Shown here piece after piece: positions 39,828 to 52,788 of a stretch of DNA of 64,000 nt. The stretch's first letter is position 1. Each line of letters opens with the position of its first letter. Location: NCBI RefSeq assembly GCF_025457425.1, contig NZ_JAMXIA010000001.1, positions 310,001-374,000 of the forward strand, written 5' to 3'. This DNA comes from Chryseobacterium foetidum. Its GTDB lineage: Bacteria > Bacteroidota > Bacteroidia > Flavobacteriales > Weeksellaceae. The position numbers were made by a program, and so were the translations under genes. The notes beneath the pieces were generated by a model. That model was not told where the DNA came from. It saw nothing but the letters and a program-made list of their open reading frames with translations, and searched no databases.

Positions 39828-39864
39828 ATTGTTATATTTTTTGGTACTTGTCAATTTACAATAA

Positions 39865-40146
<282 letters not shown>

Positions 40147-40171: not shown

Positions 40172-40636
40172 ATGGAAACAAACGAAACTCAGGCAATACT
40201 GAAAGACCTCATCCAGATTACCAACGACAGAATTTCTGCATTTGCAAAAGTGGAAGGTCAGATTTGGGAGAGTTATCCTGATATCAAATCTGAATATGAG
40301 AAAATGATTTCCCACACGAACGTTATGAAAAATGAGCTCGTGAATATTCTAAGGGAAAATGATTCTGAAATGAATGAAGATTCATCATCTGTGCGCGGTA
40401 ACATTCACAGTACCTGGATTGATATTAAAAGTGCTTTCAATATAGATTCTGTCAACTCCACTTTAAACAGTGTGATTTCAGAAGAGGAAGCTGCTTATAA
40501 AGCGTATGAAAAAGCATTGGAGACAGAAGGTTTTTCAGTTGAAACAAAATCTGTTCTGGAAGATCATCTTTATCACCTGAAACAATCTCACAAACAGTTC
40601 AGGGAAATTCTGGAGTACAGACAAAATAAAGATTAA
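40172..40636 (+). CDS. DUF2383 (PA2169-type) four-helix-bundle protein, second copy
   Basis: A 154-aa paralogue of the leftward gene at 39375. LKDLIQITNDRISAFAKVEG, MKNELVNILREND and NIHSTWIDIKSAFNIDSVN align directly with it. The sequence is more acidic, and the two copies are clearly diverged, so it is an old duplication. It lies 25 bp after the lmo0937-type gene and 11 bp before the next gene. Confidence 0.87.
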   Translation: METNETQAILKDLIQITNDRISAFAKVEGQIWESYPDIKSEYEKMISHTNVMKNELVNILRENDSEMNEDSSSVRGNIHSTWIDIKSAFNIDSVNSTLNSVISEEEAAYKAYEKALETEGFSVETKSVLEDHLYHLKQSHKQFREILEYRQNKD

Positions 40637-40647
40637 AAATAAGCAGT

Positions 40648-40881
40648 ATGACATACGAAGAGGCTTTAAAACAAAAAAAAGAATCTGTAAAAAATGCAGA
40701 TCAATCTGTATTAAACTTATATCACATCCTGATTTCGCCCGAAAACACAAAAGAAAGTGTAGACTTTATTGATCACTATCTGAAAAACCCAGACAGCTGC
40801 AACGATGAATCCTGTAAAAAGTTCTCGTCATCAGACAACTACCAGATTGTAAGTATCAGAAAGGAAGATCAGGAAGTATAA
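40648..40881 (+). CDS. 77-aa hypothetical protein
   Basis: A small soluble protein, mainly helical in the first 50 residues (MTYEEALKQKKESVKNADQS, LNLYHILISPENTKESVDFI), then a Cys pair in DSCNDESCKK that could bind a metal. The family is not recognised. Position inside the rightward stress-gene group and the 11-bp gap upstream support it as real. Confidence 0.6.
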   Translation: MTYEEALKQKKESVKNADQSVLNLYHILISPENTKESVDFIDHYLKNPDSCNDESCKKFSSSDNYQIVSIRKEDQEV

Positions 40882-40904
40882 ATTTAGATAAAAACAAAAT
40901 TAAA

Positions 40905-41174
40905 ATGGAAATAAACGACCTGCTGAAAAAAGAGATTACAGGCCTTTCAGAAGAGATTAAAAACATTATTGTAAAATATCGGAAGAAAAAAACAGTAGAA
41001 GGAATGATTTCTGAATCACATCATAATCCATTCAAAGTAGAAATTTCGCAACGTGATGTAAAAGATCCTGAAGAAAAATTTCACGAAATCGATTTTGAAA
41101 AAGCAGTTGAAATTGCTATTTACTACTATAATGGCAAAATCAGTGTTCACGCCGACAGTAAATACACAGAGTGA
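40905..41174 (+). CDS. 89-aa hypothetical protein
   Basis: A charged soluble protein starting with a helix (INDLLKKEITGLSEEIKNII) and ending in strand-like VEIAIYYYNGKISVHADSK. No family is recognised. It is 23 bp after its neighbour and in the same direction. Confidence 0.6.
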   Translation: MEINDLLKKEITGLSEEIKNIIVKYRKKKTVEGMISESHHNPFKVEISQRDVKDPEEKFHEIDFEKAVEIAIYYYNGKISVHADSKYTE

Positions 41175-41204
41175 TGATGCTCTAAAAATTTTTGAATAAT
41201 TAAT

Positions 41205-41537
41205 ATGATTTCTTCAGACAACAAATTCAGCTGCTGTGCAATACTCAAAAAGAAAGATCGTGAGACTTTCGATTTCCTGTATGCCGAATTCAACAGCCAG
41301 TTTTACGGTATCGCCCTGCAGTGTCTTGGCGACAAAGATCTTGCAGACAACATTATGATCCTTACTTTTACGAATATCTGGAGAGATTTGGAAAAGTTTA
41401 AAGGAGATACCCATCAGTTAAAATCATTCTGCACTTGCATACTCATGCGTTCTTTGAGAAATCACTTTCCACCAGCATCATCGGCAGAAAACGAAGAAAT
41501 CAAAAATGAAAAACAGCTGAAAACAATTTCAATTTAA
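41205..41537 (+). CDS. Sigma-70 region-2-only protein
   Basis: This 110-aa protein aligns along its length with region 2 of ECF sigma factors: FDFLYAEFNSQFYGIALQCL, the region 2.2-like GDKDLADNIMILTFTNIWRD and a region 2.3/2.4-like SFCTCILMRSLRNHF. Region 4, the -35-binding helix-turn-helix, is absent; the frame stops after a short polar tail, and the next gene (41569) does not encode it in any frame I could see. It may bind RNA polymerase core without promoter recognition, or be a decayed sigma factor. It lies among stress-type genes. Confidence 0.7.
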   Translation: MISSDNKFSCCAILKKKDRETFDFLYAEFNSQFYGIALQCLGDKDLADNIMILTFTNIWRDLEKFKGDTHQLKSFCTCILMRSLRNHFPPASSAENEEIKNEKQLKTISI

Positions 41538-41568
41538 TATCCAACTCACTTAATAATACCCCAAAATA

Positions 41569-41997
41569 ATGTTTAATACCCCTATTGAAAAAATTGATTT
41601 CCTACGTTTCTTTTTAGGAAATGCCAACGGCAAAAGTGCCGAACTCATCATCGACAAAGGCTTTGTTTACATCAGTGAATATTTTGGCTACTTTAAAGAA
41701 ATTCTTCAGAATCCGGATAAAAAATTTTCGGAAATGAGCGAAAAGAAACTTATTTCTACATTTGAAGAAATAGGGATCACGGAATGGAAAGAAAATTATA
41801 GCAACAATGATATTTTTGAAGGAAAAGAGTGGGAGCTTGAGATGAAAATCAATAATGAACAGAAGCATTATTATTTCTTTGGTTATGAGGAATATCCATC
41901 TAAAACAGGTCATTCCAGCAGCATGAAATATTCTAATGAATTCAGAAAATTACTTCAGACTCTTAATTCCGTTTCACATTCCTCCTATTTTGCATAA
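41569..41997 (+). CDS. 142-aa hypothetical protein
   Basis: A soluble protein with alternating strands and helices (SAELIIDKGFVYISEYFGYF, FEEIGITEWKENYSNND, KEWELEMKINNEQKHYYFFG). No family is recognised. It is 32 bp after the sigma-like gene in the same direction. No signal peptide. Confidence 0.6.
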   Translation: MFNTPIEKIDFLRFFLGNANGKSAELIIDKGFVYISEYFGYFKEILQNPDKKFSEMSEKKLISTFEEIGITEWKENYSNNDIFEGKEWELEMKINNEQKHYYFFGYEEYPSKTGHSSSMKYSNEFRKLLQTLNSVSHSSYFA

Positions 41998-42039
41998 AAA
42001 CGGAATGACTTTTGAGAATTAAAAATAAAATAAACTATT

Positions 42040-42225
42040 ATGAACGTTAAGAGAACATTCGGAACCATTCTTACAGTTCTTGGCATTGCCGGTTTACTGT
42101 ACACAGGTTATCAGCTGATGCAAAAAAGTGAAGCCTACACCAATATGGCTGTGGTAGGAGTTATCGGATTGATCTTCTTTTTTGCAGGAATCGGTCTGGT
42201 ACAAAACACCAGAGACGAAAGCTGA
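42040..42225 (+). CDS. 61-aa two-helix membrane protein
   Basis: A very small membrane protein with helices at about 7-25 and 36-54 (TILTVLGIAGLLYTGYQL and MAVVGVIGLIFFFAGIGLV). It resembles DUF3185-like inner-membrane peptides, but assignment is uncertain. It is the last gene before a terminator. Confidence 0.65.
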   Translation: MNVKRTFGTILTVLGIAGLLYTGYQLMQKSEAYTNMAVVGVIGLIFFFAGIGLVQNTRDES

Positions 42226-43048: not shown

Positions 43049-43663
43049 ATGAAACCTAAAAATATTCATGGAGTTCCAAAACAGGTGAAAGGTGGCTTTC
43101 ACGATTCTGAAAGTATCCTCAATTTAGAAAATAATGACGAAATCGAAATTCAGTTTCATCATCTTAAAGAAAGATTTTTTGGAATAGGCGAATGGCACAA
43201 ATACTGTCCGGAAACCACAGCAGATTTTAAACTCTGCAACTTCAACGGAAATGTTGTAGACCGCCTGCCACAGTTGGGTGATTACATCAGGATTGATATT
43301 CCCGGTCCCGGCGGAACAGAAGGCCGGTCATTTGACTGGACAGTTATTGATAAAATTGATTTCGAATCTCCGGACAGACTTTTAATTCAATGCAGACCTT
43401 CGCCCGATCCGAAAAAAATGAACAGTAAAAAGATTGCCCATTTCTATTGCGACAAAGCAACTTCCACTTTCGTCATTGAGCGAAGAGAAAATTCTCTGAT
43501 AGCGGCTGTGTATGGCAGAAACGAATCTCCGAACTTGAAATCGGGCTTCATCAATTCGGCCAGAAATATTATGATTGCCATCGGCGGAATGTTCGGACTT
43601 TCAAAAATTCAGTGGGAATGTCTTGCGGAAGGAATGCTTAGGCCAGAAAAAACAGATCTTTAA
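43049..43663 (+). CDS. 204-aa hypothetical protein
   Basis: A soluble protein without signal peptide. Conserved-looking stretches are GIGEWHKYCPETTADFKLCN, DYIRIDIPGPGGTEGRSFDW and the C-terminal SARNIMIAIGGMFGLSKIQW. The His, Trp and Cys in the first could form an active or ligand site. I recall similar unannotated proteins in Bacteroidota but no function. Confidence 0.6.
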   Translation: MKPKNIHGVPKQVKGGFHDSESILNLENNDEIEIQFHHLKERFFGIGEWHKYCPETTADFKLCNFNGNVVDRLPQLGDYIRIDIPGPGGTEGRSFDWTVIDKIDFESPDRLLIQCRPSPDPKKMNSKKIAHFYCDKATSTFVIERRENSLIAAVYGRNESPNLKSGFINSARNIMIAIGGMFGLSKIQWECLAEGMLRPEKTDL

Positions 43664-46396: not shown

Positions 46397-46894
46397 ATGG
46401 AAATTGAACGAAATTTATTGTATGAAGTAGCAAATTTGCTGAAGAATTCTAAAGAAACAGTTTCTGTTGCCGAAAGTGTAACATCCGGTTATCTGCAGTA
46501 TTCATTTTCACAGATGGCTGATGCTTCCAAATATTATCACGGTGGGATCACTGCCTACACTCTTGAAAAAAAGGTGAAATTTCTCAACATTAACAGTGAA
46601 GAGGCAGAAAAATGCGATTGTGTATCTGATAAAATCGCTGAAGAAATGGCCCGTAACATAGCAAAGTCTTTTGAAACCGACTGGGGAATTGCCGTGACAG
46701 GCTATTCTACGCCTGTGGAAGAATCTGATTTTAAAATCTATGCTTATTTCAGCTTCAGCCACAAAGATGAGATCGTCTTTACAAAAAAACTAGAACTTCA
46801 CCCGAGAACAAACCAACAGAATGCACAGATCTACTATTGTGAATTTATTCTGGGATGTTTCAAAACCAAACTGTCTGAACTTCAATCTGAATAA
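46397..46894 (+). CDS. CinA C-terminal family protein with altered active site
   Basis: This 165-aa protein has the PncC/CinA C-terminal fold (nicotinamide-nucleotide amidase in E. coli). The nucleophile motif reads AESVTSG (Ser27), compared with AESCTGG in the family. KYYHGGITAYTLEKKVKFLN and VSDKIAEEMARNIAKSF match well. The substrate loop TGIAGPxGG is replaced by TGYSTPVEE (residues 101-109). Catalytic activity may be lost or changed. It is in the stress region, not beside DNA uptake genes or an N-terminal CinA domain. Confidence 0.78.
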   Translation: MEIERNLLYEVANLLKNSKETVSVAESVTSGYLQYSFSQMADASKYYHGGITAYTLEKKVKFLNINSEEAEKCDCVSDKIAEEMARNIAKSFETDWGIAVTGYSTPVEESDFKIYAYFSFSHKDEIVFTKKLELHPRTNQQNAQIYYCEFILGCFKTKLSELQSE

Positions 46895-52425: not shown

Positions 52426-52788
52426 CTATTTCTTCCGAATCAAATTTTCAATTTTTTCGATTACATCATCGATATCGAAAGGTTTGCTTACAAACACATC
52501 TGCATCACAACGTTCTGTAACCTCTGTATTTTTCGCATGAGCACTCATAATCATAACCGGAATTCCCGCGGTTGCAGAATCATTTTTGAGCTGATTACAG
52601 ACATCGGTGCCCAGACCGTCGGGCATCATCACATCCAGAATAAAAATATCCGGAACTTCAGACTCCTTTCTGCTGTTAAACGCTTCAATGGTAGAAAATG
52701 AGCGTACTTCATAATTTTCAAATGATAAGAGCAGTTGTAAAGCATCTCTGATGCCCGTCTCATCTTCAAGTATATAGATAGTTTTCAT
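52426..52788 (-). CDS. Single-domain response regulator
   Basis: This 120-aa protein is a receiver domain only. The acidic pocket is Glu8/Asp9 (ILEDE), the phosphorylation site Asp52 (FILDVMMPDGLG), the switch Ser82 (IMSAH) and Lys102 (VSKPFD). There is no output domain, so it must act through another protein, perhaps as in phosphorelays. It lies 156 bp downstream of the histidine kinase gene in the same direction and is probably its partner. Confidence 0.9.
   Translation of the reverse strand: MKTIYILEDETGIRDALQLLLSFENYEVRSFSTIEAFNSRKESEVPDIFILDVMMPDGLGTDVCNQLKNDSATAGIPVMIMSAHAKNTEVTERCDADVFVSKPFDIDDVIEKIENLIRKK

Follow-up and report, generated by a model that had tools for sequence, protein, structure and literature searches.

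The sigma-like domain of PhyR folds like an ECF sigma factor, but its promoter- and core-binding regions are degenerate (PMC8103513); it sequesters the anti-sigma factor NepR (PMC8103513; PMC8999054). In Bacillus subtilis, RsoA is a stand-alone region 2 protein that works with SigO (PMC8103513). In Porphyromonas gingivalis, the response regulator PorX contacts the ECF sigma factor SigP (PMC4800418). Here, we compare with these systems a 110-aa protein encoded in a 64,000-nt stretch of DNA from Chryseobacterium foetidum, which is referred to as the window. The protein had been predicted to consist of sigma-70 region 2 only, and it was suggested that it could act as a decoy or modulator of core RNA polymerase in the stress response.

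Operon context, fold, and selection

The gene at positions 41205-41537, which starts with ATG, is one of six consecutive same-strand genes (40172-42225) with gaps of 11 to 42 nt between them. The gene itself is separated by 30 nt from its upstream neighbor and by 31 nt from its downstream neighbor. The run comprises the following genes:

40172..40636, + strand, four-helix-bundle stress-type protein (PA2169/DUF2383); opens the same-strand run
40648..40881, + strand, 77-aa protein of no family; conserved operon member (cluster 5), at 5 of 5 orthologous loci
40905..41174, + strand, 89-aa protein of no family (cluster 6); directly upstream of the sigma2 gene at 5 of 5 orthologous loci
41205..41537, + strand, sigma region 2-only protein of 110 aa; sigma2 fold at about residues 8 to 92, disordered and fast-evolving tail at residues 92 to 110
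41569..41997, + strand, 142-aa protein of no family, with no HTH or sigma4 (cluster 7); directly downstream at 5 of 5 orthologous loci
42040..42225, + strand, 61-aa membrane protein; closes the run, present at 3 of 4 other orthologous loci

Of the four other orthologous loci, only that of C. piscicola lacks the PA2169/DUF2383 gene. The downstream 142-aa protein is strongly constrained (dN/dS of 0.04 to 0.09).

The intergenic sequence 39850-39990, located between two divergent stress-type genes, is about 86% identical over four Chryseobacterium species and contains the conserved blocks GTGGTACCTAAAGTTTTT and AAAAAGGGCAGACTAATTGTAT. Judged from this sequence, it is likely a conserved regulatory region. 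A candidate shared promoter word, TGGTACCTAAA, was rejected, as its 24 occurrences in the window are no significant enrichment over the 16 expected (9 of 100 shuffles were as high).

The Pfam model Sigma70_r2 matched the 110-aa protein with an E value of 6e-4 over profile positions 1 to 65 of 71. Taken alone, the protein scores 19.9 bits, which is under the curated cut-off of 24 bits; its C. piscicola ortholog scores 27.7 bits and lies over it. Many NCBIfam ECF sigma models matched as well, in their region 2 part only (best E = 1.3e-5). An AlphaFold2 model built from five aligned sequences reached a mean pLDDT of 74, with about 90 across residues 20 to 85, and consisted of four helices (residues 10 to 14, 19 to 41, 44 to 64, and 69 to 87). 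When this model was compared with the PDB by Foldseek, the top rows were all sigma region 2 with a probability of about 1, and no E value was below 0.001. Structural re-alignment superposed it on ECF sigma2 domains with Z scores of up to 11.4. The best matches were ECF sigma factors, mostly anti-sigma-bound, namely, AlgU/MucA, SigW/RsiW, and SigK/RskA (Z = 11.3 to 11.4; 11.3 for Mycobacterium tuberculosis SigK in complex with RskA). Among the matches listed, both the PDB search and the re-alignment returned sigma region 2 only.

Region 4 was absent from the protein according to its ORF, Pfam, and NCBIfam. The adjacent 142-aa product had no Pfam or NCBIfam match to sigma4, and no reading frame continued a sigma factor past the stop of 41205-41537. 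The original prediction that region 4 is lacking from both the protein and the next gene is borne out, and the 110-aa protein is confirmed as a sigma-70 region 2 fold without region 4.

A search for relatives in 173 genomes of the genus yielded four close orthologs, from Chryseobacterium caseinilyticum, Chryseobacterium sp. Leaf394, Chryseobacterium sp. Leaf404, and C. piscicola. Their identities to the window protein are 65, 64, 59, and 49% over the matched stretch and 43 to 65% over the full alignment. All are 110 to 113 aa long and share the gene order 77-aa protein, 89-aa protein, sigma2, and 142-aa protein, which excludes chance as the source of the observation. Pairwise Nei-Gojobori comparison of the orthologs with the window gene gave dN/dS values of 0.09 to 0.25 for the sigma2 core (residues 15 to 88) and of about 0.75 for the loosely constrained last 22 residues, ratios that are approximate because some pairs approach saturation at their synonymous sites. 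Four syntenic orthologs of equal length and a low core dN/dS therefore indicate a functioning sigma2 domain with a loose tail, and a remnant or truncated gene was rejected on these grounds; relatives have no full-length gene at this locus, their orthologs being equally short. The frame described as intact is accordingly under purifying selection, and it sits in a stress-gene operon.

The sigma2-only family and its genomic neighborhoods

Profile searches recovered sigma2-only proteins of 110 to 148 aa, here termed the short family, in at least 24 of the 173 genomes of the genus. Short-family proteins were also found in a sister genus (g28) that belongs to the same taxonomic family, where several genomes encode them. 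Some genomes hold two copies. A further spread across the order was rejected, as all matches outside the short family in an order-wide sample were frames of full sigma size (180 aa or more; E < 1e-20). A phage origin was discarded, the window protein being without a phage match, as was a plasmid-borne family, for which there were only distant sigma factor matches (24 to 32% identity). The family is apparently undescribed so far: a literature search that mostly covered openly available papers found none that describes degenerate sigma2 proteins standing alone in Bacteroidota. In places the family decays, with copies in two species containing in-frame stops (G141:C3:937345, G125:C60:23552, and G125:C27:74428).

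The window's genome has a second sigma2-only gene on a 220-kb replicon (L031 5117-5464; G000:C2). At a distance of 218 nt, it faces the convergent gene of a single-domain response regulator, beyond which a Crp-type regulator and then a 612-aa protein resembling a ClC-type channel are encoded.

In a tree of 47 sigma2 domains, 28 of 28 short proteins fell into one clade (support 100/99), which branched next to the SigK-type ECF sigma factor found throughout the genus. The five window-type proteins formed a well-supported, long-branched subgroup of this clade; the inner branching was weak because only 87 columns were available. The tree demonstrates common ancestry of the short family with the SigK type. 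The full-length SigK relative in the window's genome (G000:C1:2878525) is directly followed by RskA, and a single RskA-type anti-sigma factor was present in each of the five genomes checked. There is no anti-sigma gene beside the window's sigma2 gene. All other sigma2 matches in this genome were full-size sigma factors with a sigma4 match, except for a primary-sigma-size protein that was not scored by the sigma4 model. A search with PF08281 found no convincing sigma4-only gene in this genome and four related ones, and a more divergent partner is possible; sigma4 matches other than full sigma factors had lengths that suggest ordinary HTH regulators.

A single-domain response regulator was encoded within 5 kb at 9 of 29 short-family loci, at six of them 108 to 577 nt from the short gene. 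About 2.5% would be expected per locus, given approximately 10 such regulators per approximately 4.1 Mb in two fully counted genomes. The binomial P value, which is approximate and post hoc, was 3e-8; collapsing near-copies, which left 7 of 20 loci, gave 4e-7. The remaining 20 loci, the window's among them, had no single-domain response regulator within 5 kb. PAS/GAF histidine kinases lie beside several short-family loci, and in C. piscicola (L074) the genes of a histidine kinase-response regulator pair are oriented divergently to the orthologous operon. A DUF4142 gene adjoins six other short-family loci. Adjacent response regulators belonged to several clades, in which they were interspersed with regulators encoded at other sites of the genomes; this argues against one dedicated partner, and a dedicated partner family was therefore rejected.

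Further genes of the window recur near the short family. A 204-aa protein without a Pfam match (43049-43663) has homologs in eight short-family neighborhoods and a CinA-type protein (46397-46894) in six, and both may belong to the same stress islands as well. A single-domain response regulator encoded at 52447-52779, 11 kb from the sigma2 gene, falls into a clade that also includes regulators beside short-family genes elsewhere.

Residues lost and kept

We aligned 33 full-length SigK proteins with 23 short proteins and numbered the positions as in Escherichia coli RpoE. Q51, D52, K56, A78, R79, and N80 were invariant in 33 of 33 full-length proteins. Of these residues, D52, A78, and R79 were missing from all 23 short proteins, and the D52 position was usually hydrophobic. 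Q51, the region 2.2 glutamine, was kept in 6 of the 23 and N80 in about 2, so that the -10 recognition residues of regions 2.3/2.4 were lost throughout at A78 and R79 and in about 21 of 23 proteins at N80. At least 22 of the 23 short proteins have F22, Y26, Y34, G35, F54, and W73, and 21 have E48; the acidic pair E48/E49 of region 2.2 is largely kept. Conserved residues specific to the short family are D23, A37, T53, N56, and L78, and most members show a trace of the linker motif (FPxFxF versus LPDFVY of SigK). Across this alignment, both the residues that read the -10 element and the Q-D pair of region 2.2 have demonstrably been lost in a systematic way.

Ten anti-sigma contact positions were taken from a table in PMC7406223, and -10 contacts were those of M. 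tuberculosis sigmaH (PMC6411747), mapped by offset. The short family retained the SigK residue at 64% at the ten anti-sigma contacts versus 36% elsewhere, with 32% at the DNA positions of the specificity loop and 16% at region 2.4 positions. The difference between anti-sigma contact and DNA sites gave a permutation P value of about 0.002. These data are strong for a loss of DNA reading and only moderate for anti-sigma binding, because several contacts also belong to the fold or the beta' clamp surface. The kept residues F22, Y26, F54, and W58 would fit core binding or fold stability too, since the faces for anti-sigma helix 4 and the beta' clamp (regions 2.1/2.2) overlap. Counting against mimicry, SigK has H and the short family D at position 23, which is one of the anti-sigma contacts; Q51, also a contact, is mostly changed; and the acidic residue E48/E49 is kept in most members.

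Proposed role and comparison with known systems

Our preferred reading, held tentatively as quite possible but short of probable, is that the short protein is a dedicated sigma-like domain, a region 2 mimic derived from a SigK-type ECF sigma factor that acts by protein contact in a stress circuit. Such a mimic would have arisen once, shedding region 4 and most promoter-reading residues, and would now work in the stress response through protein-protein contact. It may bind an anti-sigma factor on the real sigma factor's surface, displacing and hence freeing that sigma factor, as an anti-anti-sigma decoy whose logic would resemble that of the PhyR sigma-like domain. The best candidate for the target is RskA, because the short family is closest to its sigma factor. 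At some loci, a response regulator may gate the short protein. Anti-sigma displacement and regulator gating are both what we infer from the analysis. An extension that we consider improbable is that the sigma2 mimics of Chryseobacterium and its sister genus form the anti-anti-sigma output of two-component signaling, as a SigK-derived, PhyR-like switch that would have evolved independently in Bacteroidota with its receiver on a separate polypeptide.

The interpretation in the original prediction stood for the sigma2 fold, the missing region 4, purifying selection, and the stress operon, but the core RNA polymerase decoy was not supported. Under that explanation, the domain would still bind the clamp helices of beta' and either compete with ECF sigma factors or alter RNA polymerase. 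The fold is present, and E48/E49-type acidic residues and the aromatic scaffold are largely kept. However, anti-sigma contacts lie on the same faces, so this retention does not favor a core reading. Positions 51 and 52, which belong to the core-binding patch of sigma70 (Q406 and E407), weaken it, because D52 is absent from 23 of 23 short proteins and Q51 is retained in just 6 of 23. We therefore regard a core decoy as unlikely; sigma mimicry, toward either an anti-sigma factor or a two-component regulator, is at least as good a fit. A two-component output or adaptor that associates with a single-domain response regulator, in the manner of a two-polypeptide PhyR or of PorX-SigP, and acts on another target would suit the nine loci with a nearby regulator, the histidine kinases at several loci, and the direct binding of an ECF sigma factor by a response regulator in Bacteroidetes (PMC4800418). 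It is nevertheless doubtful, given that 20 of 29 loci, including the window's, have no regulator within 5 kb and that regulators of several clades may simply be colocated in stress islands.

Far less probable is one half of a split sigma factor pairing with a separate sigma4 protein into an active holoenzyme. Stand-alone sigma2 proteins of this type exist, as RsoA with SigO shows (PMC8103513), but promoter-reading residues are lost here, and the split sigma factor was disfavored because a sigma4-only partner was not found in the five genomes. A decaying remnant of a full-length sigma gene is the least probable explanation and is already refuted for the core by synteny and dN/dS: in-frame-stop copies in G141 and G125 and the nearly unconstrained tail would agree with it, yet the same length and operon recur in five species, the core is constrained (dN/dS of 0.09 to 0.25), and the family has conserved residues of its own (D23, A37, T53, N56, and L78).

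As a sigma2-only family that is under selection, has lost promoter-reading residues, and repeatedly lies near stress genes and genes for histidine kinases and response regulators, the short family is a concrete candidate for such a mimic. Annotation calls for caution here, as short proteins of this kind are likely to be labeled as sigma factors, and their residue pattern says that they probably are not.

SigK/RskA is the nearest homolog group and has the region 2 scaffold in common with the short family, which differs in having no region 4, no D52, A78, or R79, mostly no N80, and no adjoining anti-sigma gene. PhyR of the alphaproteobacterial general stress response is similar in its degenerate sigma-like fold and its stress and two-component context. 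In comparison with PhyR, the short family has clearly lost the DNA residues and partly the core residues. PhyR fuses sigma2-like and sigma4-like parts to a receiver, whereas the short family, in another phylum, is sigma2 alone; its 110-aa representative contains no receiver domain, and at some loci of the family a receiver is encoded by a separate neighboring gene. RsoA works with a sigma4 protein to start transcription, but for the short family no such partner was found and the DNA-reading residues are lost. PorX-SigP likewise links a response regulator with an ECF sigma factor in Bacteroidetes, although SigP is a full-length, active sigma factor, unlike the short family. EcfP (ECF43), an ECF sigma factor activated by phosphorylation, resembles the short family in its altered region 2.2; it is, however, full-length and without the acidic DAED motif, whereas the short family largely keeps the acidic pair and loses Q-D.
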